The notes under the pieces: model-generated
Database searches by the model: none
Seen by the model: the letters and a program-made list of their open reading frames with translations, nothing else
What the model was told of the DNA's origin: nothing
DNA from: Novosphingobium sp. IK01
GTDB taxonomy: Bacteria; Pseudomonadota; Alphaproteobacteria; Sphingomonadales; Sphingomonadaceae
Direction of reading: 5' to 3'
Length of the DNA: 64,000 nucleotides
NCBI RefSeq assembly: GCF_033242265.1
Contig: NZ_BTFW01000001.1
Coordinates: 744,001 to 808,000 of the forward strand
Program-made: the position numbers and the translations under genes
Shown here: in pieces, positions 1 to 44,873 of the stretch
Position numbering within the stretch: the stretch's first letter is position 1
Layout of the letters: every line of letters starts with the position of its first letter

Positions 1-819
1 CTCAAGGATGGCGCGCTGGGGGCCGACGGCATCTGGCGGCAGATCGTCACCGTGTTCGATGCCATCGCCAAGGGCTTCGACCTCGTCGATCTTGCCGAAC
101 TGCAACGCGAAAATTCGGTCGACGAGTTCGACAACCTGTTCCGCTGCCTGTTCCTCGACGACAGCCAGAGCATGTTCCCCTTCGAGATCATGCGCCGCTG
201 CATGGTCGACAGCTGGGACGTCTGGCGCGATGTCCAGCCCTATGCCGCGCAGCCCTACGCGGGCGAGGTCTGGCTGGGCTATGATCCCAACGCCAGCGAG
301 GCGGGCACGGGCGACGATGCCGCGCTGGTGGCCATCGCCGCGCCGCTGGCGCCGGGCGCGCGCTTCCGCGTGCTGGAAAAGAAGCGGCTCAAGGGCCTCC
401 AGTTCGACCAGCAGGCCGCCGCGATCCGCGAGATGGCCGGGCGCTATCGCGTCACCCGCATCGCCATCGACGTGACCGGCGCGGGCAGGGCGGTCGAGCA
501 GCTCGTGCGCAAGTGGTTCCCGCTGGTCACCGCGATCACCTATTCGCCGCTGTCCAAGAGCCAGATGGTGCTCAAGGCCAAGAACGTGATCAGCGCCGGG
601 CGTCTGGAGTTCGACGCGGGCTGGATGGACATGATGAGCGCCTTCATGGCGATCCGCCCCGAGATCACCAAGCACGGCATCACCTATGTCGCGGGTCGCG
701 CCGGGGGCGTGGGCCATGCCGATCTGGCCTGGGCAGTGATGCACGCCCTGTTCTTCGAACCGCTCGACGCCAGCGAGGGCATCGGCGGCACGTCCACCAT
801 GGAGATTTTCGATGCCTGA
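1..819 (+). CDS. P: Phage terminase large subunit, P2 gpP family (5' truncated by window edge)
   Basis: ATPase/nuclease that cuts concatemeric DNA at cos and pumps it into the prohead. The frame is open from base 1 and carries about the last 272 residues, the RNase H-like nuclease half. It aligns with the C-terminal half of the prophage 2 terminase (12129-14003): WRQIV near the start, then GYDPN with acidic residues, IAIDVTGAG, and a closing HADLAWAVMHALFFEPLD. The N-terminal Walker motifs lie upstream of the window. It overlaps the portal gene by 8 nt, the usual P-Q coupling. Confidence 0.9.
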   Translation, partial: LKDGALGADGIWRQIVTVFDAIAKGFDLVDLAELQRENSVDEFDNLFRCLFLDDSQSMFPFEIMRRCMVDSWDVWRDVQPYAAQPYAGEVWLGYDPNASEAGTGDDAALVAIAAPLAPGARFRVLEKKRLKGLQFDQQAAAIREMAGRYRVTRIAIDVTGAGRAVEQLVRKWFPLVTAITYSPLSKSQMVLKAKNVISAGRLEFDAGWMDMMSAFMAIRPEITKHGITYVAGRAGGVGHADLAWAVMHALFFEPLDASEGIGGTSTMEIFDA

Positions 820-1888
820 TACCCCGGCCCTTCCGGTGGAGGTCGCGCCTGTTCTGTCCGCAGACCAGTCCGCAAGCCCGCCTGCCAGCCCGCCTGCATC
901 CACGATTGCCTTTGCCTTCGGCGACGCGGAAAGCGTGCTCGACCGGCGCGAGCTGTTCGACCTGTTCGAGGTCGCCCACAATGGCCGCTGGTACGAGCCG
1001 CCGATCCCCCACGCCGGGCTGGGCCGCTGCTATCGCATGGCCGCCCATCACCAGAGCGCCATCCTGCTCAAGCGCAACCTGCTGGTCTCCAGCTTCGTGC
1101 CCAGCCGCTGGCTGTCGAAGGCCGACTTCGCGCGCTGGGCGCTCGACTGGCTGATCTTCGGCAATGCCTATCTCGAGGTCGTGCCCAATCTGGCGGGCCG
1201 CGCCGCCGCGCTGCGCCCGGCCCCGGCGGCCTTCACCCGCGTCGGCCTCAAGCCGGGGCAGTTCTTCTTCGTGCCCGGCATGTACCTGCACGACGCGGTC
1301 GAGTTCCGCACCGGCTCGATCCACCATCTGGTCGAGCCCGACCCGATGCAGGAAATCTACGGGATGCCCGAATATCTCTCGGCGCTGCAATCGGGCCTGC
1401 TCAACGAGAGCGCCACCCTGTTCCGCCGCAAATACTACATCAACGGCAGCCACGCGGGCTATATCCTCCACGTCAGCGACGAAAACTTCACCGAACGGGA
1501 CAGCGAGGCCCTGCGCGAGGCGATGCGCCGGAGCAAGGGACCGGGCAACTTCCGCAACTTCTTCATCCACATCCCGCGCGGCAAGCCCGATGGCGTGAAG
1601 ATCATCCCGATCGGCGAAGTAGGCGCCAAGGACGCCTTCACCGAGATCAAGGACATGACCGCCCAGGACATGCTGGCCGCCCACCGCGTGCCGCCCCAGT
1701 TGCTGGGCATCGTGCCCAAGAACACCGGCGGCTTCGGCAACGTGGTCGATGCCGCGCGCACGTTCTACCAGCTGGAAATCGTCCCGATCCAGCAGCGCAT
1801 GGCCGAAGTGAACGACTGGCTGGGCGCGGCGGCGGTCACCTTCCAGATCCCTGATGTCGCGAGCCCTGCCACGCCGGGCGCTGCCTGA
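812..1888 (+). CDS. Q: Phage portal protein, P2 gpQ family (PBSX family)
   Basis: Forms the dodecameric portal vertex through which DNA enters the head. 358 aa, the normal length for P2-like portals. Family landmarks are NGRWYEPP near residue 65, GLGRCYRMAAHHQSAI, LIFGNAYLEVV, EIYGMPEYLSALQSGLLNE, RRKYYINGSHAGYIL, RSKGPGNFRN and AHRVPPQLLGIVP. The protein at 11110-12132 shows the same landmarks in the same order. Its ATG overlaps the terminase stop. It is the last recognisable structural gene of prophage 1 in the window. Confidence 0.93.
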   Translation: MPDTPALPVEVAPVLSADQSASPPASPPASTIAFAFGDAESVLDRRELFDLFEVAHNGRWYEPPIPHAGLGRCYRMAAHHQSAILLKRNLLVSSFVPSRWLSKADFARWALDWLIFGNAYLEVVPNLAGRAAALRPAPAAFTRVGLKPGQFFFVPGMYLHDAVEFRTGSIHHLVEPDPMQEIYGMPEYLSALQSGLLNESATLFRRKYYINGSHAGYILHVSDENFTERDSEALREAMRRSKGPGNFRNFFIHIPRGKPDGVKIIPIGEVGAKDAFTEIKDMTAQDMLAAHRVPPQLLGIVPKNTGGFGNVVDAARTFYQLEIVPIQQRMAEVNDWLGAAAVTFQIPDVASPATPGAA

Positions 1889-2083: not shown

Positions 2084-2920
2084 ATGCTGTCGACTCTGCC
2101 GTCCGCCCCCGAAGCTCTCCCTGACGATCCCATGAGCGCGATTGCCCCGATCCGCCCGCCCGCGCCCTACATCGGGGGCAAGCGGATGCTGGCCAAGCGC
2201 CTGGTCGAGCGCATCAACGCGGTGCCCCACACGCTCTATGCCGAGCCGTTCGTGGGCATGGGCGGGATCTTCTTCCGCCGCGACCAGCGCCCGAAATGCG
2301 AGGTGATCAACGACTGGAGCGATGACGTGGCCACGTTCTTCCGCATCCTCCAGCGCCACTACGTGCCGTTCATGGACATGCTGCGCTGGCAGATCACCAG
2401 CCGCGCGGGCTTCGACCGCCTGCGTCGGCAAGACCCGTCAACCCTGACCGACCTCGAACGCGCCGCCCGCTTCCTCTACCTCCAGCGCCTGGCCTTCGGT
2501 GGCAAGGTGGCCAGCCGCAACTTCGGGGTGGACACCACCATGGGCGCCCGCTTCGACGTCGCCAAGATCGGCCCCCTGCTCGAAGCCGCCCACGAACGCC
2601 TGACCGGCGTGGTGATCGAGCACCTTCCCTGGAGCGACTTCATCACCCGCTACGACCGCCCCGGCACCCTGTTCTACCTCGACCCGCCCTACTACGGCTG
2701 CGAGAAAGACTACGGCGCCACCCTGTTCGATCGCAGCCAGTTCACCGCCATGGCCGCCCAGTTGCGCACCCTCAAAGGCAGCTTCATCCTCTCCCTCAAC
2801 GACCACCCCGAAGTACGCCGCATCTTCGAAGGCTTCACCATCACCCCGGTCCCCGTCCGCTACACCGTCGGCGGCATGGCCCAGAGCAAAATCGCCGGTG
2901 AAGTGATCATCAGCGCCTGA
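2084..2920 (+). CDS. dam: DNA adenine methylase, D12/Dam class
   Basis: Predicted S-adenosylmethionine-dependent N6-adenine methyltransferase, 278 aa. PYIGGKR near residue 26 and YAEPFVGMGG near residue 50 form the AdoMet-binding motif I region; the catalytic motif IV is DPPY in FYLDPPYYG near residue 200. AGGAA lies 8 nt before the ATG; an internal ATG at 2132 would give a protein starting just before the conserved domain. It is clearly homologous to the methylase at 26846-27664 in prophage 2. It sits directly after the portal. Likely roles are protecting phage DNA from restriction or regulating methylation; the target site cannot be read from sequence. Confidence 0.88.
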   Translation: MLSTLPSAPEALPDDPMSAIAPIRPPAPYIGGKRMLAKRLVERINAVPHTLYAEPFVGMGGIFFRRDQRPKCEVINDWSDDVATFFRILQRHYVPFMDMLRWQITSRAGFDRLRRQDPSTLTDLERAARFLYLQRLAFGGKVASRNFGVDTTMGARFDVAKIGPLLEAAHERLTGVVIEHLPWSDFITRYDRPGTLFYLDPPYYGCEKDYGATLFDRSQFTAMAAQLRTLKGSFILSLNDHPEVRRIFEGFTITPVPVRYTVGGMAQSKIAGEVIISA

Positions 2921-3283: not shown

Positions 3284-4492
3284 ATGCTTTTCGAACTATC
3301 GATTGAAAATTTTTACTCCATTAAGGAACCGCAGGTGATCGACTTGCGGGTTGCTGGCAATGCGCCGGACCTGCCGGGGCGCTTTGCCCCGATCTGGGCA
3401 GGAGCCTCCGAGCGTGCTCCCAAAGTGGTGGCGATTTTTGGCCCCAACGCAGCGGGCAAGTCGACGGTGCTGCGGGCCCTGTCCTTCATTGCCTGGTTTA
3501 TTCGTGACAGCTTTCAATTGGCGCCCAACGGCCGGTTGCCGTTCGAGCGATTCAACAATCGGGAAGGCCTGAATTCACCGACCCGCCTGTCGCTGTCGAT
3601 CGCCGGATTTTCCGACCCCAGCGATCCAACCTCGGCGCCCTGCAAGTACACCTATTCAGTCGAGATTGGAGGAATGGAAGACGCGCAGCCCATGGTGCTG
3701 AGCGAAGCGATCTATTATTGGCCAGAAACAACAAAGCGCAGGGTCCGCCTTTTTTCACGCGACGAAACCGGTAAGGTCACGGCAGGCCCTCCGTTCCAAC
3801 TCGGTGGTTTTCGTCAGGCTTTGGAGAAGATTCTTCGCCCCAATGTCAGCGTGCTGGCAACGCTCGCACAGCTCAAACATCCTTTGTCGACCCAGCTCTG
3901 GGAAGCCGCGAATTCGGTGTCGTCAAACATTTTGATCGAAAGATCGGATGGAGTCGAAGACCTCGTCGTTCGACATTATGCCGAAAATCCGGCGTTGATC
4001 GAGGCACTTAACCGAGAGATCGAACGCATCGACCTTGGCATCCGTTCGATGCGGATCGAGACGGGCCCGAGCGGTCCGATCGCATTGTTTGTGCACGAAG
4101 GACACGACGGGCCTATGCCGCTGGTTCTTGAGAGCCATGGAACGAGAACCTTCCTGCGCCTCTACCCTTTCCTGCTTCGCGCTTTGGAAACTGGCGGCGT
4201 CGCGGTGTTGGACGAACTCGACACGGCAATCCATCCGCTCATTCTGCCCGAAATCATCCGCTGGTTCCATGATCCCGCGCGCAACCCGCGCGATGCCCAG
4301 CTCTGGATGACCTGCCACAACGCCTCTTTGCTCGAGGAACTGGTCAAGGAAGAGGTACTCTTCTGCACCAAATCCGCGACCGGGCAGACCGAGGTCTTTG
4401 CACTTCAGGATGTGCAGGCGGTGCGGCGCGACGACAACTATTATCGCAAGTATCTTGGCGGCGTCTACGGCGCCCTTCCCCAGATCGGATGA
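3284..4492 (+). CDS. AAA15-family (RloA/AbiLi-like) ABC-type ATPase
   Basis: 402-aa ATPase of the COG1106 type. The N-terminus (ELSIENFYSIKEPQVIDL) is the standard RecF/SMC-like start. Walker A is GPNAAGKS at residues 53-60. A signature-like ESHGTRTFLRL segment near residue 285 precedes Walker B VAVLDELDTAIHP near residue 307 and a switch-like WMTCHN. Proteins of this family pair with an RloB or DUF4435 partner in AbiL and PARIS anti-phage systems, where the ATPase is thought to act as sensor. Its stop overlaps the next start (ATGA), implying a two-protein unit. Lower GC than its neighbours suggests transfer. The defence role is inference. Confidence 0.85.
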   Translation: MLFELSIENFYSIKEPQVIDLRVAGNAPDLPGRFAPIWAGASERAPKVVAIFGPNAAGKSTVLRALSFIAWFIRDSFQLAPNGRLPFERFNNREGLNSPTRLSLSIAGFSDPSDPTSAPCKYTYSVEIGGMEDAQPMVLSEAIYYWPETTKRRVRLFSRDETGKVTAGPPFQLGGFRQALEKILRPNVSVLATLAQLKHPLSTQLWEAANSVSSNILIERSDGVEDLVVRHYAENPALIEALNREIERIDLGIRSMRIETGPSGPIALFVHEGHDGPMPLVLESHGTRTFLRLYPFLLRALETGGVAVLDELDTAIHPLILPEIIRWFHDPARNPRDAQLWMTCHNASLLEELVKEEVLFCTKSATGQTEVFALQDVQAVRRDDNYYRKYLGGVYGALPQIG

Positions 4493-5052
4493 GCCGGCGG
4501 CGGGCAGCCGTTCCGCAACGGCGTCGATACTTCATCGGCTGCGAGGGCGAGAGCGAACAGGGTTATGTCGCGCTGCTCGCTCGTCTGGCTGGGCTACGCA
4601 GGAGCGCGGTCCATCTCGACGCAGTGCTGCTTCAGCCTGGCGGAGGAGACCCGCTGGCGCTGGTCGAACTGGCAGATAGAAAGGCTGATGAGCGCGAAAG
4701 GAGAAGCGGGGCTTTTGCGGGACGCTTTATCCTTCTTGACGACGACAAGCTCGGACAGGCACCCGCGCGCGATGCCAGAATCGAGGCAGTACGGGCGAGA
4801 GGCCGTTTTCAGCTCATCTGGCAACGTAGCTGCCATGAGGCGTTGTTGCTGCGGCATCTGAAAGGCTGCAGCCAACGCAGGCCAGGTAATACACCCAGGG
4901 CCCTGGCTGACCTTGAACGGGAATGGCAGGGCTATCGCAAAGGTTTGCCGGCCGCTCGGCTGGCCGATCGTATCGATGAGGATGCCCTTGGCAGGGTTGC
5001 AGCAGTCGAACCTGAACTTGCGATCCTCCTGGCCGCGATCGGCTTCGTCTGA
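4489..5052 (+). CDS. RloB-like protein (TOPRIM-like nuclease partner)
   Basis: 187 aa. The N-terminal YFIGCEGESEQGY (residues 14-26) followed by ILLDDDKLG (81-89) matches the acidic residues of a TOPRIM-like fold. A SCHEALLLRHL segment near residue 113 corresponds to the conserved FELWLL-type region of RloB proteins. RloB is the usual partner of AAA15 ATPases (AbiLii of AbiL). In the related PARIS system the TOPRIM partner is the toxic effector. The 4-nt overlap with the ATPase supports co-translation. It ends 34 nt from the convergent gene on its right. Family assignment is fairly secure, activity is inferred. Confidence 0.75.
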   Translation: MSRRRAAVPQRRRYFIGCEGESEQGYVALLARLAGLRRSAVHLDAVLLQPGGGDPLALVELADRKADERERRSGAFAGRFILLDDDKLGQAPARDARIEAVRARGRFQLIWQRSCHEALLLRHLKGCSQRRPGNTPRALADLEREWQGYRKGLPAARLADRIDEDALGRVAAVEPELAILLAAIGFV

Positions 5053-5086
5053 ACGATCTGCTCAGTCCAATGGGGAAGCCGCGACT

Positions 5087-6358
5087 TCAATTCCACGGTG
5101 CCAGTGCAAGGCCAGCACTTTGGATTCGGGTGGCGCATGATTCGCAAAGGCGAAGTGACGGAACACCAGGCATTATCTTGGAGCCTTTGGCCTGGCGATA
5201 ATCCTTGATCACATTGGCACCGCACGCCGAGCAGACGACGTCAGATCCGGCCTCGTCAATCCTCGCACGAGCTATTTGAGCAAACTCCGGTGCCACGACC
5301 TCGACGAACTGAAACCAGCGCTCTGAGTGCGGCTCGATGCGTTCAAGATGATCGGCGACATCGCTTTGGAAGTGCCGGTCGAGCCAGCCAATAGTGACGT
5401 GGCGGCGTGTCTCATCATTCTCGACGAGCGTCGCATATAGATCTGCCAGTTGGTGAAAGCTTTCCAGATCGAATGTCGCGGCGAGTAGCCGATGGTCCCG
5501 AAGCCCGGAGACAAAGCGCCAGGCGCAGCTGTAGGTATCTTCGAGCAGCCTGCACCGCATCTGGCGTGTTGACGCTGCATTGTCTGGCGTGGTTATGGCT
5601 TCGAGAACATCGAGGTTGTAGTGCCATGGGTTCGCCTTGAGGTCGTAGCGCCACATGTCAAGATAGCCTGAATCGCGAAAAACCTTGGCAATCCTGGCGT
5701 CGTGCTCCGGCTGGATGACAAGAAGTTCAAGAACGTCTGAGAGCGTCTCAATCTGGGGAGCGAGCGTGCGGGCCTCCTCCAGGACGGCATCGGTACAGTC
5801 CTGCATCCCGGCCACCGGGTTGGGTCTTGCTGCGCGAGCAGCCAACTCCTCTGGTGAGACCAGCTCCAGCATATCGGAAAGCGGTTCCAACAATGGGCTG
5901 TCGAGCAGTTCCTGGGGGGTGCAATAATCAGGATCGGAAACAAGAGAGATCCCGCCGGCAGCGAAGGCTCGAGCAATGAGACGCGAGCAATATTCGCGGT
6001 TGTTTCTAGGACCACCACTCCCGCGAAGTGAACGCCCTGCTTCGATGGCAGAATAACGTGTGCCGATCTTCGATCGGACAAAATCAGTCACGAGGTCGAG
6101 TGAAGCAGCTTCGATCGGGGACCGCAGCCTCAGGACGAAGACCTGGTCGTCGGGTCCAAAGAGTTCGCGTTGAATGTTATAGGCATGAACATTATCGGCG
6201 GTTGAGTCGATAAACGATCCCGCGCCGACACAGATCATTGCGTGCGAGACCTCCTCGCCGCTGCGCTCACGCATCCGGACATTCTCCGGATCGGCTGGCG
6301 CAGTCAGCACGATGTCACCACGCTTCAAACGCTCGACCATGATACGCCGTCGTTGCAT
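5087..6358 (-). CDS. Permuted NlpC/P60 (YiiX/LRAT-like) hydrolase with C-terminal zinc ribbon
   Basis: 423 aa, or 417 from the ATG at 6340. N-terminal module: GDIVLT, then SHAMICVG with a likely catalytic His39, then REYCSRLIARAF with a likely nucleophile Cys124. This His-before-Cys order marks the circularly permuted papain-like fold. A mostly helical middle of about 200 residues has no motif I recognise. The C-terminus has CSAC (376-379) and CESC (405-408), a four-cysteine zinc ribbon. It is convergent with rloB. It could be a cassette component, an independent toxin or effector, or an unrelated moron. No signal peptide is seen, so a cytoplasmic role is likelier than wall hydrolysis. Confidence 0.65.
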   Translation of the reverse strand: MQRRRIMVERLKRGDIVLTAPADPENVRMRERSGEEVSHAMICVGAGSFIDSTADNVHAYNIQRELFGPDDQVFVLRLRSPIEAASLDLVTDFVRSKIGTRYSAIEAGRSLRGSGGPRNNREYCSRLIARAFAAGGISLVSDPDYCTPQELLDSPLLEPLSDMLELVSPEELAARAARPNPVAGMQDCTDAVLEEARTLAPQIETLSDVLELLVIQPEHDARIAKVFRDSGYLDMWRYDLKANPWHYNLDVLEAITTPDNAASTRQMRCRLLEDTYSCAWRFVSGLRDHRLLAATFDLESFHQLADLYATLVENDETRRHVTIGWLDRHFQSDVADHLERIEPHSERWFQFVEVVAPEFAQIARARIDEAGSDVVCSACGANVIKDYRQAKGSKIMPGVPSLRLCESCATRIQSAGLALAPWN

Positions 6359-7136: not shown

Positions 7137-7889
7137 TCAGGCGGGGTACTCCCTACTCACTGAACTCGCACTCGGGGAACTGGAAGGGACCTCGTCGAGA
7201 CGGGCGCCGATCGCGTCGAGGACGCGGGCCATCTGCTTGTCGCCGGGGTGCAGGGCGCTGCCCAGCGTGCCCAGCGGACGGGCGAGGAGGGCTTGCCGCT
7301 CGGCGGCCTGCGCCTTCTTGCGGGCCTGGATGGCCTCGGCCCGCTGACGACCGCCGACCAGTTGGGCGAACCGCTGTTGCACGGCGGCGACCAGCCTGGT
7401 CGCGAAGGCATAGGCGTTGCTGATCTGCTCGCGCTGGGGGCCTTCGGCCGGGCTGCGCCCGGTGCGGCGTGTGCGGCGCACCTTGTCGAGGAAGCCATGC
7501 TCCTTGAGCGCCTCGATCGCGCGCACGACGGTGGCGCGCGCGAGGCGCGCCTTCGCGCAGATCGTGTCGAGCGCCGGATCGCAGCGGCCCGAGGCGAAGT
7601 CGACGAAGCCGAGCAGCACCTCGAGCACCCAAAGCCCGTTGCTGCCCAGCGGTCCCTCGCGCTCGCCCTTCTTCTTGTGATGCGTGTTGTACTCGCGCGC
7701 GACCTGCAAAAGCTTGTCGCGCCAGCGCAAGGCATCGCCCACGCGCCCGCCGCAGATCGGGCGGAAGATCTGGGCGCGCGGATCGTGTTCGTCGTAGCTG
7801 TTCCGGCGCGGGGTACGCTCGAAGCGCGTGCCCTCTTGCAGGGCTTTGATGCGCCAGCCGACGAGATCGCCGATGGAGGCCGTCGTCAT
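7137..7889 (-). CDS. Helix-turn-helix protein, plasmid-replication-protein-like
   Basis: 250 aa. The central segment with LGFVDFASGRCDP, then ARATVVRAIEALKEHGFLDKVRR (near residues 115-140), is a winged-helix/GntR-like recognition unit. Similar proteins in sphingomonad mobile elements are annotated as replication protein A or HTH domain proteins. The C-terminal third is basic and rich in Ala/Gln/Arg. It begins 19 nt after the integrase stop, so the two are probably co-transcribed. It might control replication or excision of prophage 1; the precise role is unknown. Confidence 0.55.
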   Translation of the reverse strand: MTTASIGDLVGWRIKALQEGTRFERTPRRNSYDEHDPRAQIFRPICGGRVGDALRWRDKLLQVAREYNTHHKKKGEREGPLGSNGLWVLEVLLGFVDFASGRCDPALDTICAKARLARATVVRAIEALKEHGFLDKVRRTRRTGRSPAEGPQREQISNAYAFATRLVAAVQQRFAQLVGGRQRAEAIQARKKAQAAERQALLARPLGTLGSALHPGDKQMARVLDAIGARLDEVPSSSPSASSVSREYPA

Positions 7890-7908: not shown

Positions 7909-9177
7909 CTACCGCCTGGGGACGGCCAGCAGGCTTTCGACCGGCGCCAGACCCTCCGAGATCAGATCCGCCCATTCCTGGGCCAGTTCCCGACGCCTGG
8001 GCATGTACGAGGCGCGATTGTAGGCCGACTCGACCTTGTCCTTGGGCACATGCGCCAGCATCAGGTCGATGATCGCCCGGTCGGCGGGGCGATTCTGCTC
8101 GATGGCCCGCTCGTTCATGATCGTGGAGAACGTCGAACGCCAGCCGTGGGGAACGTGCTTCCCCTCGAAGCCCGCGACGCGGCGATACGCCACGTTCAGC
8201 GCATTCTCCGTGATGGGCCGATGCGCGTGCCGCGCCGAAGGGAACAGATACCGCCGGTTGACCCCGAACAGGCGCGCTGCCTTCACCGTGGCCACTGCCT
8301 GCCGCGAGAGCGGCAGGATGAACTCGAAGGCCTCGCTCTCGGCATGCTCCTTGCGCAGCTTCATTTTCTCGGCCGGAACCCGCCAGATCGGGTTGGGTCC
8401 GTCCAGATCCTCGAACTCGTGCGGTTCGGCCCACTGGATCATACCCGGACGCGCCGCTGTCAGCGCGAGCAGGCGCGAAGCAAGCTTGGTCGTGGGATGC
8501 CCCGGCACGGCCTCGTAGGCCATCAGGAAGGCCCGCGCTGCGTCCAACTCGCGAAAGGCCGGCTGCTTGCGCTTGCGCACGGGTTGCAGCGCCGCCCCGA
8601 CGAAGGCCGCCGGATCGGTCTCGGCAATATCCGAGGCAATCGCATAGCGAAAGACCGCCGAAATCCGCTGCCTCAGACGATGCGCCGTCTCGACCGCACC
8701 ACGCATCTGCACCCGGTCGAGTACCGCCCTGACGTCGACCGGCTTGATCTCGCCCAGCGGACGCCCGCCCAGGTAGGGGAATACCTCGTTGGTCAGACTG
8801 GTGATGACGTCGCTGGCATGCCGCTCCTTCCACTGCGGAGCCTGCATCGTGTGCCAGCGTTCGGCCACGACCTGAAAGGTGCTGTTCGCATCCACCCCGG
8901 CAATCCGCCGCAGCGCCGCGCGCCGCCGCTCGTCGCCTGGATCGACGCCCTGGCGCAGCAACGCCCGCGCATCGTCCCGCATATCCCGCGCCCGCTTGAG
9001 CGAAATCTCGGGGAAGGAGCCGAACACCAGCCCGCGCTCCTTGCCACCGAAGCGATATTTCCAGCGCCAGCCTTTGTGCCCGCCGGTCGTGACATGCAGA
9101 TACAAGCCCAGCCCGTCGAAAAGCTTGATCGGCTTGGTGCCAGGCACGACTGCCTCGCACTCCTTGGTGGTCAACAT
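7909..9177 (-). CDS. int: Tyrosine integrase of prophage 1 (DUF4102/P4-type)
   Basis: Catalyses site-specific recombination at the tRNA-Ser 3' end. About 422 aa from the start chosen here. The N-terminal arm-binding DUF4102 domain is recognisable by GLGLYLHVTTGG and FGSFPEISLKRARDMRDDA. The catalytic set is the Arg in ALTAARPGMI, HGWRSTFS (HxxR) and the Tyr in YNRASYMPRRRELAQEW. The frame extends to 9279, but the domain begins at ATG 9177 (MLTTKECE), and the 34 extra residues would run through the direct repeats at 9179-9211. Homologous to the integrase at 43295-44632, matching the shared att core. Confidence 0.93.
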   Translation of the reverse strand: MLTTKECEAVVPGTKPIKLFDGLGLYLHVTTGGHKGWRWKYRFGGKERGLVFGSFPEISLKRARDMRDDARALLRQGVDPGDERRRAALRRIAGVDANSTFQVVAERWHTMQAPQWKERHASDVITSLTNEVFPYLGGRPLGEIKPVDVRAVLDRVQMRGAVETAHRLRQRISAVFRYAIASDIAETDPAAFVGAALQPVRKRKQPAFRELDAARAFLMAYEAVPGHPTTKLASRLLALTAARPGMIQWAEPHEFEDLDGPNPIWRVPAEKMKLRKEHAESEAFEFILPLSRQAVATVKAARLFGVNRRYLFPSARHAHRPITENALNVAYRRVAGFEGKHVPHGWRSTFSTIMNERAIEQNRPADRAIIDLMLAHVPKDKVESAYNRASYMPRRRELAQEWADLISEGLAPVESLLAVPRR

Positions 9178-9178
9178 G

Positions 9179-9211
9179 CGATACCCCCAATTGCTCGGAA
9201 CGATACCCCCA
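9179..9211. repeat. Tandem 11-bp direct repeats in front of int 1
   Basis: CGATACCCCCA occurs at 9179-9189 and 9201-9211, 22 bp apart, about two helical turns. They abut the integrase start codon and lie about 125 bp from the att core. They are candidate integrase arm-binding or autoregulation sites, distinct in sequence from those of prophage 2. Confidence 0.5.
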
Positions 9212-9335
9212 CGGTTCCCCCATGGCGGTTGAGCTGCCCTGAAACAAAATGGGAACACCAGCAAGCCGAAATTCGCCAAAACGCAGGAAAAGCGCGGTTT
9301 TCCGCGCTTTCTTGGGATCAGCTAAAAAGGAGGGG

Positions 9336-10481: not shown

Positions 10482-10772
10482 ATGGAAACGCAGCAGACGC
10501 CCGCTTTCAAAGACTGGTTCAACGCGCTTCGCGATGTGAAAGCCCAGTCGAAGATCGCGGGCCGCATTGCTCGTTTCGAACTTGGCCTCATGGGTGACGT
10601 GAAGTCAGTCGGGGATGGAGTGTCAGAAGCCCGGATCGACTTCGGCCCCGGCTATCGCCTCTATTTCACGCGCCGGGGCACGCAGTTAATCATCCTGCTG
10701 ATCGGCGGGGACAAGTCCAGCCAGCAGCGGGACATCGCGAAGGCAAAGGAAATGGCGGCTCAGATACCCTGA
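10482..10772 (+). CDS. higB: RelE/ParE-superfamily toxin, HigB / addiction-module killer type
   Basis: 96 aa. FKDWFNALRDVKAQSKIAGRIARFELGLMGDVKSVGDGVSEARIDFGPGYRLYF follows the compact RelE fold pattern of the phage-derived addiction module killer family. The usual role is a ribosome-dependent mRNA interferase, or gyrase poison in ParE relatives. It precedes its antitoxin, the order typical of higBA. It lies between the cos-like sequence and the portal gene, a moron position. There is no clear ribosome binding site. Confidence 0.85.
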   Translation: METQQTPAFKDWFNALRDVKAQSKIAGRIARFELGLMGDVKSVGDGVSEARIDFGPGYRLYFTRRGTQLIILLIGGDKSSQQRDIAKAKEMAAQIP

Positions 10773-10819
10773 ACCGCCATCATGGAAATATGACCATCTC
10801 TGCATAGCCCGAGAAGGGA

Positions 10820-11113
10820 ATGGATATGACTATCGAACTCACGCCTTTCGACGCAGCCGAGTATCTCACCGAACCGGAAGACCAGGCCGAACTGCTCGCG
10901 GATGCTCTGGAAACCTGCGACGTGCACGTCATTGCCAAGGCGATTGGCATTGTCGCCCGCGCGCATGGGATGACGGAACTGGCGAAGGAAACCGGGATCA
11001 AGCGCCAGCAACTCTACCGTTCGCTTGGCCCAGACGGAAATCCGACGCTGGAAACCATGCTGAAGGTGCTGCCGGCGCTCGGCCTCAAGATGCGGATCGA
11101 AGCGGCGGCCTAA
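10820..11113 (+). CDS. higA: HigA-like antitoxin (addiction module antidote)
   Basis: 97 aa with a Cro/CI-type helix-turn-helix in the second half: AKAIGIVARAHGMTELAKETGIKRQQLYRSLG, then NPTLETMLKVLPALGL. The N-terminal part EYLTEPEDQAELLADALE is typical of the antidote family and probably contacts the toxin. It starts 47 nt after the toxin stop, from ATG 10820 or 10826. It likely represses its own promoter. Its last 4 nt overlap the end of the convergent portal gene. Confidence 0.85.
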   Translation: MDMTIELTPFDAAEYLTEPEDQAELLADALETCDVHVIAKAIGIVARAHGMTELAKETGIKRQQLYRSLGPDGNPTLETMLKVLPALGLKMRIEAAA

Positions 11114-20689: not shown

Positions 20690-22432
20690 TCACGCTAGCA
20701 AATCTTTGAATGCCGTCACGAGCATCTTTTCCCGCTTTTCGATAAATTCTCGAAAATTGGCAAAGGTGAGATTGATGTCAGGAATATAGTGCTTGACCAT
20801 ATAGTCCGTGCGATCAGCTTTTGAGGGGTATTTTTCAGTCAGCCATGCGTCGAAATCCTTGCCTGACTTCTCCTGATTAGGAACCCCTTCGAGCAATTGC
20901 AAATTGGCGAGGCTATTGAAATTTTCCAAGAAAAATTCAGCGTCTTCATCCTTGATTCCAGCCTTCGATAGCCGATTTTTCGTGAATAATTTCTTCGGGA
21001 AGATGTGATCTTGATGAAACTTATTGCGAAAATCGAGCGTCGGGTAAAGGAACGCTAGAACAGAGTAGGTGTATGCCTCGCCGTATCTATAGTGGAGCAG
21101 ACTCATGATCTCGTCTGTGTCGAATGACAGGGATTTCGTGCCGCCCTTCAGCTTGTTGGAAATCTCCTCGAGCGGAAAGCCCTGTACGGCACTGTTAATG
21201 ACCTCACGGATAGGTCGAAGCACGTTATCGGGTTGACCACTGAATGTGCGCTTGAGCAGAACGATCACCAGCCATTTGAAGATGGCCCTGCGGTCAGCCT
21301 CATATTTCGATGCAACGGCGAAATTGTTGGGGACGCCAATCTTCTTCAGATAATGGGCGATTGGGATCAGGGCATTGTTGGATGTCAGCGTATCCCGGTG
21401 ATAGCCTAGATTGGCCAAGAGGATGACTGCGCCGCGGATCGCTTTAGTGATGTCCTCCCACTGCTGCTCGATATTGAGCATGTTCGCCTTGTTAAAATTG
21501 TCCACCTTGAAGGCAATTTCCCGGAAGCCGCCGAGGACAAGGCAGCATTTCAGGACGAAGTCCTTGTTGATGTTGAAGCCGTCGCCGATGGCATTCACCT
21601 CGTCGACGAATTCGGTGATCTCCTCACGTGCGTCCTTGTCCTTCCACTGGGCCGTGGCGATGGACAGTAGCAGGTCGGAATAATTGAGTTGGGTGCCGCC
21701 GCTGTTTACGCGGATGAAGATATTGAGAACCTTGTCAAGGTCTTCGCCACGCTCCAAGAAAAAGTTGATTGATCTGCTTTTGTGAATGACGTCATGGAGC
21801 TTGAATAGAGCCTTGTTGGCGAGCCGAAAATTGTCTTTTCTGAACTGCGCGACATCATTGTTCAGCAGATAATCGTTGACATCGACTGGCTCAAGGATGC
21901 CTAGAATGTCGCCAACCTTGAACCAAAAATTGTCGTCGTCGCGAACTTCGGCTTCTTTTTTTGTCAAAAATCTGAACTGATACTCGACGTCGCTATCTTC
22001 GGCGGAAGCATAGAACAGGTTCAAATAGAGATGCCGCTTTGGAAAAGCGGTATCATTGTCCCAGCGCTTGCGCGGCATTTTGTAAGCATATGACCCTTTG
22101 AGTCCGATATAAAGGGAGGTCAACCGCTGTTGGCCGTCGAGAATGGCGATAATGCCGGACTCGCCGCTTAGGTTGGCTTTGGGGTTGTGGTAACTGTCGC
22201 GCTCGTGGTATTCACGGACAAATTCGTAAAACTGGTATTTGTCGACATTGTTGCGGTCGACTTCCCAGAATAGAAATGAGCTGATTGGATAATCCCGCAT
22301 AAGGGAATCAAAGAGCGTTTCTATTTGGTCGACGCTCCAGACGAATTCGCGCTGTATGGCGGGAAGAACGTAATTCTTACGATGAATATTGTCGATGGCG
22401 TCCTTGATCGTGATCGGCTCAACAAACGCCAT
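20690..22432 (-). CDS. DUF262 + HNH (GmrSD-like) putative anti-phage protein
   Basis: 580 aa. The N-terminal DUF262 domain has YVLPAIQREFVW near residue 25 and the hallmark AILDGQQRLTSLYIGL near residue 95. The C-terminal HNH/DUF1524-like nuclease has FHQDHIFPKKLF at about 472-483, then FNSLANLQLLEG with conserved Asn and Lys. DUF262 proteins with DGQQR are NTP-dependent nucleases of the GmrSD/SspE/BrxU group, active against modified or foreign phage DNA. It is markedly AT-richer than the phage genes, lies on the opposite strand and separates S from J, all signs of an acquired moron. The substrate is unknown. Confidence 0.85.
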   Translation of the reverse strand: MAFVEPITIKDAIDNIHRKNYVLPAIQREFVWSVDQIETLFDSLMRDYPISSFLFWEVDRNNVDKYQFYEFVREYHERDSYHNPKANLSGESGIIAILDGQQRLTSLYIGLKGSYAYKMPRKRWDNDTAFPKRHLYLNLFYASAEDSDVEYQFRFLTKKEAEVRDDDNFWFKVGDILGILEPVDVNDYLLNNDVAQFRKDNFRLANKALFKLHDVIHKSRSINFFLERGEDLDKVLNIFIRVNSGGTQLNYSDLLLSIATAQWKDKDAREEITEFVDEVNAIGDGFNINKDFVLKCCLVLGGFREIAFKVDNFNKANMLNIEQQWEDITKAIRGAVILLANLGYHRDTLTSNNALIPIAHYLKKIGVPNNFAVASKYEADRRAIFKWLVIVLLKRTFSGQPDNVLRPIREVINSAVQGFPLEEISNKLKGGTKSLSFDTDEIMSLLHYRYGEAYTYSVLAFLYPTLDFRNKFHQDHIFPKKLFTKNRLSKAGIKDEDAEFFLENFNSLANLQLLEGVPNQEKSGKDFDAWLTEKYPSKADRTDYMVKHYIPDINLTFANFREFIEKREKMLVTAFKDLLA

Positions 22433-43294: not shown

Positions 43295-44632
43295 TCAGAG
43301 GCCGGGGCGTCCTGCCCCGGCCACACCATAGCGCATGGGCTGGCCGATATGGATCGCTGGCGGCCACATGTCTGCCAGCAGGATGTCGGCCCATTCCTGC
43401 GCCAGTTCTCTCCGGCGGGGCATGTAGGCCGCGCGGTTATAGGCGCCTTCCACCCGGTTCGCGGGCACATGGGCCAGCATCAGGTCGATGATCGCGCGAT
43501 CGGGGGAGGCGGTCGCATGCCCGGCCTCGCGCCATGCGCGCTCCACCCTCTCGTTCATGATCGTCGAGAAGGCCGAGCGAAACCCGTGGGGAACGTGGCG
43601 CTGGTAGTATCCGGCCCGGATCAGCAGGGCGCGCAGCGTGTTCTCGCTCATGGGCCGATGCACATGGCGGTCTGACGGGAAAATCAGCTCAAGGTCGCCG
43701 GTCAGCGGCATCATGGCCTTCAGCACGGCCACCGCCTGGGGCGCCAGCGGCACAAGGTGGTCGCCATCTTCTTCCGCCTTGCGGTCCACGTCGCCCTTCA
43801 TCCGGTGCGCGGGGATCCGCCACAAGGGTTCCTCGCCATCGAGATCCTCGAACTCATCCCACCGGGCGCCGTGGATCTCGTTCGGCCTGACCGCTGTCAG
43901 GGCCAGCAGGCGCAGCGCCAGCTTGGTGTGCGCGCGGCACCGTTCCGCCTCGCAGTCGACGAGCATCTGGCGAAGCGCGGGCAGGTCGGTGATGGCCGGC
44001 TGTGGCTTGGCCTTGGGTTTGCGGGGCAGGGCGATGGCCAGACTGGCCGCCGGATCGCGCACGGTCTGATTCGTGGCGATACCATAGACGAATATGGCAC
44101 TGATCCGCTGGCGCGTCCGGTGCGCGGTCTCGATCGCGCCGCCTTCCACGATCTTCTGGAGCAGCCTGAGCACCTCGGGCGACTGGATATCCTCGATGGC
44201 GAGATCGCCGATTACCGGAAACACAAGCTTTTCAAGGCAGTCGAGGACATCCTTGGCATGCACCTTCGACCACCGCTGCATCTGGAGCTTGTGCCATGCC
44301 ATGGCGACACCCTTGAACGTGGGCCGCGTATCATGACCCGCGCCTCGTTCGAACAGATCCCCAGGCCTGGGCTCGATCCCCTTGGCCAGCATCGACTTGG
44401 CCAGATCGCGGGCGTCCCGCGCGTCCTTCAGCGAAATGGCGGGGTAGGGGCCGATCGTCAGCGTCTTCTGCGCCAGCTTGCCTTGAGCATTGCGGCCGAA
44501 CTGGTAGTTCATGCGCCAGACCCGGCCGCCGACAGCCGAAACATGCAGGTAAAGCTGCTCGCCGTCCGAAAGCTTGTAGGCCTTGCCTGTGCCCTTGGCC
44601 CCGCGAACCTTGGTGTCGCTCAGCATGCCCAT
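43295..44632 (-). CDS. int: Tyrosine integrase of prophage 2 (DUF4102/P4-type)
   Basis: 445 aa. N-terminal DUF4102: AYKLSDGEQLYLHVSAVGGRVWRMNYQF and IGPYPAISLKDARDARDLAK. The catalytic Arg sits in ALTAVRPNEIHGARWDEF, HxxR in PHGFRSAFSTIMNE, Tyr in YNRAAYMPRRRELAQEW. It lies about 150 bp from the tRNA-Ser it targets, reading away from it. An ATG at 44626 is an equally good start. The C-terminal domain closely resembles the prophage 1 integrase. Confidence 0.95.
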   Translation of the reverse strand: MGMLSDTKVRGAKGTGKAYKLSDGEQLYLHVSAVGGRVWRMNYQFGRNAQGKLAQKTLTIGPYPAISLKDARDARDLAKSMLAKGIEPRPGDLFERGAGHDTRPTFKGVAMAWHKLQMQRWSKVHAKDVLDCLEKLVFPVIGDLAIEDIQSPEVLRLLQKIVEGGAIETAHRTRQRISAIFVYGIATNQTVRDPAASLAIALPRKPKAKPQPAITDLPALRQMLVDCEAERCRAHTKLALRLLALTAVRPNEIHGARWDEFEDLDGEEPLWRIPAHRMKGDVDRKAEEDGDHLVPLAPQAVAVLKAMMPLTGDLELIFPSDRHVHRPMSENTLRALLIRAGYYQRHVPHGFRSAFSTIMNERVERAWREAGHATASPDRAIIDLMLAHVPANRVEGAYNRAAYMPRRRELAQEWADILLADMWPPAIHIGQPMRYGVAGAGRPGL

Positions 44633-44783: not shown

Positions 44784-44797
44784 TGGCGGAAGAGGTG
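44784..44797. repeat. att core at the tRNA-Ser 3' end
   Basis: Same 14 bp as 9336-9349; it is the terminal CACCTCTTCCGCCA of the tRNA on the minus strand. Integration here leaves the tRNA gene whole. Confidence 0.87.
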
Positions 44798-44873
44798 GGA
44801 TTCGAACCCACGGAGAGCTTGCACCCTCGCCGGTTTTCAAGACCGGTGCCTTAAACCGCTCGGCCACTCTTCC
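44784..44873 (-). tRNA. tRNA-Ser(UGA)
   Basis: 90 nt on the minus strand. 5' acceptor GGAAGAG pairs with CTCTTCC; discriminator G and an encoded CCA end the gene. The anticodon stem-loop GGTCTTGAAAACC gives anticodon TGA. A long variable arm, typical of class II tRNAs, and GGTTCGAATCC in the T-arm are visible. It is the integration target of both prophages. Confidence 0.96.

Follow-up and report, generated by a model that had tools for sequence, protein, structure and literature searches.

Introduction

AbiL (abiLi/abiLii) of Lactococcus lactis is a two-gene operon in which the gene for an AAA ATPase is followed by one for an RloB/TOPRIM_OLD protein (PMC10440598). RloB is related to OLD_TOPRIM domains and AbiL acts through its TOPRIM effector, AbiLii; the same source reports AAA proteins that neutralised their partners, two of these being TOPRIM_OLD proteins (PMC10440598). 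Here, we analyse a 64,000-nt window (the whole stretch of DNA considered; C1:744001-808000) of the 3.77-Mb genome of Novosphingobium sp. IK01, in which a P2-like prophage carries an AbiL-type gene pair beside a convergent gene for a 423-aa cysteine hydrolase. We consider it likely that these are two independent pieces of defence cargo, AbiL and the hydrolase, in the portal-to-rep accessory site of this prophage.

PARIS (AriA/AriB) likewise encodes its ATPase and its TOPRIM protein in separate genes. It has been described from P2/P4-type hotspots (PMC9122126), and its AriB protein cleaves tRNAs (PMC12409363). One such hotspot of P2, the old/tin site, lies between gpA and the portal gene gpQ (PMC9122126). 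The hydrolase resembles the permuted NlpC/P60 enzymes YiiX and YaeF (PDB 2if6, 3kw0), a group that has a hydrophobic S1 pocket, with a fatty acid in the case of YiiX, and whose catalytic set consists of Cys, His, an acidic residue and Tyr (PMC3142127). A term search of PMC12839542 and PMC10568477 returned nothing on RloB.

Results

The first two genes form an AbiL pair

The first open reading frame (ORF) of the locus (3284..4492, + strand) encodes a 402-aa ABC/AAA_21-type ATPase that matches the PADLOC AbiLi profile over residues 1-401 (4.7e-70, 234 bits) and Pfam AAA_21 (7.2e-25). It contains a Walker A motif, GPNAAGKS, at residues 53-60 and a Walker B motif at D310/E311, and residues G53, K59, S60, S284/G286, D310 and E311 were invariant among 30 aligned ATPases. 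The second ORF (4489..5052, + strand) encodes a 187-aa RloB-family TOPRIM-type nuclease with the motifs CEGESE at residues 18-23 and LLDDD at 82-86, in which E19, D84 and D86 were invariant across 29 aligned RloB proteins. The Pfam RloB model recognises this protein with 33.4 bits (cut-off 31.5) and the PADLOC AbiLii model at 9.4e-8; a PDB profile search with it returned nothing useful (best E 0.2). On the ORF reading of the window the two genes overlap by 4 nt and occupy two separate frames, which rules out OLD and Gabija, where ATPase and TOPRIM are fused in one protein.

The third ORF (5087..6358, - strand) is convergent to the pair and ends 34 nt past the RloB stop codon. Its start at 6358 is consistent with the N-termini of relatives in an alignment, and a coding-score gene call favoured 6340. 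At an E-value of 1e-3, and with the window's own proteins included, 109 database proteins match the hydrolase, 922 the ATPase and 267 the RloB protein (8000 candidates were scored in each of the hydrolase and ATPase searches), so none of the three ORFs is a product of chance. The ORFs, the overlap, the convergent third gene and the motifs of the pair had all been described in the original prediction, and all were found.

The original prediction had called the pair AbiL/PARIS-like. Its general layout, an ABC-type ATPase with a TOPRIM protein, is that of PARIS, and the ATPase does match the AriA profile (9.3e-29). However, it scores 234 bits against AbiLi and 99 bits against AriA, and the 187-aa protein matches RloB/AbiLii only, with no PADLOC AriB model detected up to an E-value of 0.1. 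As the second protein is RloB/AbiLii where PARIS has AriB, we reject PARIS as highly improbable, and of the earlier description the AbiL half stands, with PARIS retained only for the shared layout.

The same two-gene unit recurs elsewhere. Each of the eight annotated plasmid loci that we opened carries the ATPase gene followed by an RloB-type gene with a 4-nt overlap and without the hydrolase, and most neighbouring genes vary around this conserved unit, although two of the eight (L059 and L065) are one allele with most neighbours in common. In some of these loci the RloB-type gene is annotated only as hypothetical, and it was matched by tblastn all the same. Over a wider set of 96 AbiLi-type loci (for the viral ones, the best 80 of 114 were taken), an adjacent RloB gene was found by profile in 49, including all 19 loci with an ATPase E-value below 1e-70; the 47 loci lacking it hold remote ATPases (best E 2.4e-49). 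The pair thus belongs to the AbiL family, with intact motifs and the conserved two-gene layout, and from its sequence it appears to be an intact-looking two-gene AbiL system, a further and unexceptional example of this established type. It differs from lactococcal AbiL in being prophage-borne and in having a hydrolase gene alongside.

The hydrolase does not travel with AbiL

According to the original prediction, the three genes formed a single unit. We searched loci by six-frame profile search with the window's own copies set aside, and found the hydrolase in none of the 96 AbiLi-type ATPase loci and AbiLi or RloB in none of 49 hydrolase loci (in some loci the flanking sequence came to no more than about 1.5 kb). 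Of 229 loci in all, the only ones with both AbiL and the hydrolase were the two that represent the window's own. Genome samples gave a similar picture: the ATPase was found in four and the hydrolase in four of 298 genomes of the family, and in five and three, respectively, of 386 genomes of the class (a sample that overlaps the first), with both present only in the window's own genome.

An extended AbiL, with the hydrolase assisting or regulating the ATPase and RloB proteins, would fit the adjacency and convergence of the genes, the 34 nt between their stop codons and their similar GC content at third codon positions (GC3). It would also fit the behaviour of the hydrolase family elsewhere, which in some lineages lies operon-close to other systems: in one locus (L014) LmuB and the start of the hydrolase gene share 4 nt, and HamB lies ~50 nt upstream of the hydrolase in another (L038). 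Against it stand the position of the hydrolase on the opposite strand to the pair and the lack of any such combination in the loci and genome samples above. Given this lack of co-occurrence we reject a three-gene system, which we regard as improbable; the hydrolase occurs mostly without the pair, which is the outcome that the original prediction itself had named as refuting a joint system, and the proposed unit is not supported.

Fold family and conserved residues of the hydrolase

The 423-aa protein has weak matches to NCBIfam PRK11479 (YaeF; 1.6e-6) and Pfam C92 (3.1e-5). Its own C92 score (24.5) is under the cut-off of 27, which two of its relatives exceed (P0012, 34.7; P0092, 31.9). A profile match to PDB 3kw0 (7e-5) aligns H39, D51, Y102 and C124 with the His, Glu, Tyr and Cys of that structure, and these four residues were invariant in 31 aligned sequences, as were C376, C379, C405 and C408 near the C-terminus. 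The protein therefore has the permuted order of His, acidic residue, Tyr and Cys of the YiiX/YaeF enzymes, from which it differs in being ~280 residues longer with a four-cysteine tail, in its defence-island neighbourhoods and in scoring under the Pfam C92 cut-off. The "zinc-ribbon hydrolase" of the original prediction is borne out as a permuted papain-like (YiiX/YaeF, C92) domain with four invariant cysteines in a zinc-ribbon-like arrangement, and the tail probably binds zinc.

No PADLOC 2.0.0 model matched the window hydrolase up to an E-value of 0.1, and of the papers listed by literature searches on YiiX/C92 proteins in defence, none looked relevant. Scanning viral and genome contigs for close relatives of the hydrolase returned nothing, as did a scan of viral contigs with the hydrolase alignment. 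A single phage record holds a relative, Klebsiella phage Kp4852-2 (OK490408.1, 499-1269), with 27.5% identity over residues 1-249.

Relatives of the hydrolase lie close to defence genes

Clustered at 90% identity, the 49 hydrolase loci give 39 groups, and 26 of these contain one or more of 17 defence query proteins (22 when the query for a Cap4/STAND protein, described below, was left out), and none of the 17 matched any of 20 control windows. This comparison is biased towards the hydrolase loci, since the queries were drawn from those same loci; in addition, some matches are weak (27-34% identity), and the control windows were placed by hand at round coordinates in eight genomes and are not random draws.

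A fairer test is to compare nearest neighbours with PADLOC. At an E-value of 1e-8, the 62 nearest hydrolase neighbours matched 116 PADLOC families, whereas 62 proteins from arbitrary windows matched five. The neighbours come from 35 of the 39 groups, since the remaining four lie on short contigs and were dropped; the controls are 62 of 77 proteins, a 5,735-aa ORF and others having been dropped to equalise the number. Both sets were called with a greedy longest-ORF caller and hence include some spurious genes. The control families, RtcR/PspF-like (3 models), GlgB and subtilase, resemble ordinary cellular proteins. In contrast, the 25 neighbour families listed out of the 116 include IetA (4 members), LmuA (3), REase_II (2), HamB, ZacC, LmuB, PDC-S46, PDC-S24, PD-T7-1, AbiEii, DrmMI and bSEFIR.

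Individual loci show how varied these neighbourhoods are. IetAS genes lie downstream of the hydrolase in L018, L019 and L028, and an argonaute-type gene lies ~1.3 kb from it in L009. ZacC is nearby in L004 (1.7e-277), with a weaker ZacB match in L040 (1e-12) and related proteins in L010 and L013, and by annotation L005 has AbiH and L006 a TIR protein. Across the family, relatives of the hydrolase thus lie near genes of IetAS, Lamassu, Hachiman, Azaca, type IIG restriction, TIR, AbiH and Cap4/STAND systems. From these data we conclude that the hydrolase family is associated with many other defence systems and does not appear to be part of AbiL. On this reading the window hydrolase is a candidate for an undescribed gene of defence islands, independent of AbiL.

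Some recurrent neighbours are uncharacterised. Proteins of 694, 793 and 473 aa (L017, L032, L056) have no PADLOC match, the 694-aa one having a weak nSTAND3 match, and a 511-aa frame that overlaps the hydrolase start in L030, L033, L035 and L051 may be spurious.

In 12 of 46 loci the gene adjoining the hydrolase encodes a ~950-aa Cap4-nuclease/AAA/TPR/SEC-C protein, downstream and on the same strand in 11 of them and on the opposite strand in L020. The 12 loci are not all independent; L037, for example, is nearly a copy of L042. When this Cap4/STAND neighbour is mapped as a label on a tree of 33 hydrolases, it needs 3 changes compared with a shuffled mean of 10.1, which makes the association clade-bound; the position of the window hydrolase on this tree is unreliable because two long branches meet there. 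The hydrolase was absent by profile from all nine more distant Cap4/STAND loci opened (flanks of at most 4 kb), and no Cap4/STAND protein was detected in the window's genome at an E-value of 1e-40; on these results we reject an obligate pair. No obligate partner for the hydrolase was found across the loci examined. The Cap4/STAND protein at L043:9263-12193 and its relatives look like STAND-type immune proteins; their one PADLOC match, to LmuA, is weak (1.1e-8), and they have matches in 75 plasmid records, including ones from Rhizobium, Klebsiella, Xanthomonas, Pseudomonas and Streptomyces.

These neighbourhoods bear on whether the hydrolase has a role in defence at all. It could be a passenger of mobile DNA, serving plasmid or island maintenance or peptidoglycan or lipid housekeeping: its relatives occur on plasmids, in some cases close to transposase or integrase genes, 13 of the 39 neighbourhood groups contain none of the 17 defence queries, no obligate partner came to light, and none of the nine distant Cap4/STAND loci carries it. 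Yet the excess of defence families among its nearest neighbours over the controls and its operon-close position to several defence systems argue otherwise, and we judge a passenger without a defence role to be rather unlikely.

The cargo occupies an accessory site of a P2-like prophage

The gene order of the prophage is terminase-portal-dam-[cargo]-rep-int. The upstream anchor is a P2-type, gpQ-like portal gene (812..1888, +; PHROG 68 portal, 1.4e-137), and the left cargo edge is a D12-class adenine DNA methyltransferase gene, dam (2084..2920, +; Pfam MethyltransfD12, 7.2e-20; PHROG 56, 2.8e-80). On the right, the cargo is bounded by a gene for a helix-turn-helix (HTH) replication-initiation-like protein, here called rep (7137..7889, -; best PHROG replication initiation match 2.4e-5), and beyond it lies a tyrosine integrase gene with an Arm-DNA-bind_3 domain (7909..9177, -). 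The integrase start at 9177 is from the coding-score gene call; its Pfam matches are for a longer frame, 7912-9279 (Phage_int_M, 7.9e-32; Arm-DNA-bind_3, 8.2e-23). The setting given in the original prediction, an accessory site between dam and the HTH/integrase end of a P2-like prophage, was recovered. GC3 is 0.68, 0.62 and 0.62 in the two AbiL genes and the hydrolase gene, compared with 0.89-0.91 in terminase, portal and dam, 0.88 in rep and 0.84 in the integrase gene, which marks all three genes as inserted cargo. A search for att-site repeats gave no convincing pair.

Matches to the rep-like gene were found in 33 of 296 genomes of the family. We opened 16 regions around its relatives. Six of them have terminase and portal at one end and rep at the other, and the 0.9-5.4 kb that separate dam (or portal, if there is no dam) from rep contain different genes. 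The other ten have neither terminase nor portal in the stretch covered. Neither AbiL nor the hydrolase is present in any of the 16 regions opened, and the other cargo, judged by eye, is mostly not recognisable as defence. AbiL and the hydrolase thus lie in a P2-type portal-rep site with conserved flanks and variable content. As in the gpA-gpQ hotspot of P2 (PMC9122126), the cargo follows the portal gene and precedes a replication-type gene; it differs from that hotspot in that the replication gene is HTH initiator-like and that dam is inserted between portal and cargo.

Several of the opened regions (L125, L132 and L134, and L127, L129, L137 and L138) are compact arrays in which rep stands with dam and two integrases or between two integrases, and the stretch covered contains neither terminase nor portal. 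They may be phage satellites or elements in tandem.

To judge from gene order, another P2-like prophage, which appears to be fuller, lies next to the first at ~10400-44800, in the opposite orientation, and has an integrase-like gene (43295-44632) beside tRNA-Ser (44784-44873). A toxin-antitoxin-like pair at 10482-11113 (+), consisting of a Gp49-like protein just below the Pfam cut-off and an HI1420-type antidote, adjoins its portal-like gene, which is the equivalent cargo position. Amid its genes, at 20690-22432 (-), is a gene of low GC (0.486) for a 580-aa GmrSD-type protein (PADLOC HEC-05, 8e-236; Pfam GmrSD_N, 5e-32), a second candidate piece of defence cargo.

Discussion

By analogy with PARIS, the AbiLi ATPase would sense an infection cue, hold the TOPRIM nuclease AbiLii and then release or activate it. 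Activated AbiLii would cut nucleic acid, probably tRNA or another RNA as AriB does, and this cleavage would stop growth and abort the infection. In support of this view, the AbiLii protein of Fusobacterium proved toxic to E. coli (PMC3985639), and AAA proteins neutralised their partners, TOPRIM_OLD proteins among them, in the work cited above (PMC10440598). In an infection, the hydrolase would most likely act separately, hydrolysing or transferring an acyl (lipid-linked) bond as an accessory or an effector. An acyl- or lipid-directed action is our best guess from its fold family, and the enzyme may act in the cytoplasm.

Several observations weigh against this account and against the reading of the locus as two independent pieces of defence cargo. 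For AbiL, the RloB and AbiLii profile scores are modest. Lactococcal AbiLii left the growth of E. coli uninhibited and the toxic Fusobacterium AbiLii was not neutralised by Fusobacterium AbiLi, which speaks against reading AbiL as a simple toxin-antitoxin pair (PMC3985639). For the hydrolase, there are the groups without a defence query noted above. As for independence, the lowered GC3 common to the AbiL genes and the hydrolase gene may reflect joint arrival. The window hydrolase is also divergent (its best relative is 49% identical and its end branch on the tree is 1.48) and no close relative matches its neighbourhood, so that in this one lineage the hydrolase may have a link of its own to AbiL.

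The AbiL pair adds a prophage-borne member to a system whose trigger and target are not described in the texts that we read. The main value of the locus lies in the hydrolase family, with its conserved catalytic residues and its relatives close to many unrelated anti-phage systems, which make it a good candidate for a new defence gene. We tentatively propose, as a serious though less than assured reading, that the 423-aa enzyme represents an undescribed defence family: a modular, system-independent permuted NlpC/P60 hydrolase or acyltransferase with a zinc-binding tail, acting as an effector or enhancer and recruited beside IetAS, Lamassu, Hachiman, Azaca, restriction, TIR and Cap4-nuclease/STAND/SEC-C systems and, here, beside AbiL. 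If this is true, a lipid- or acyl-directed effector would be plugged into many immune systems. Should the hydrolase protect cells, it would represent a new enzyme class for bacterial immunity, and one would have to ask how a single enzyme can work with so many systems.

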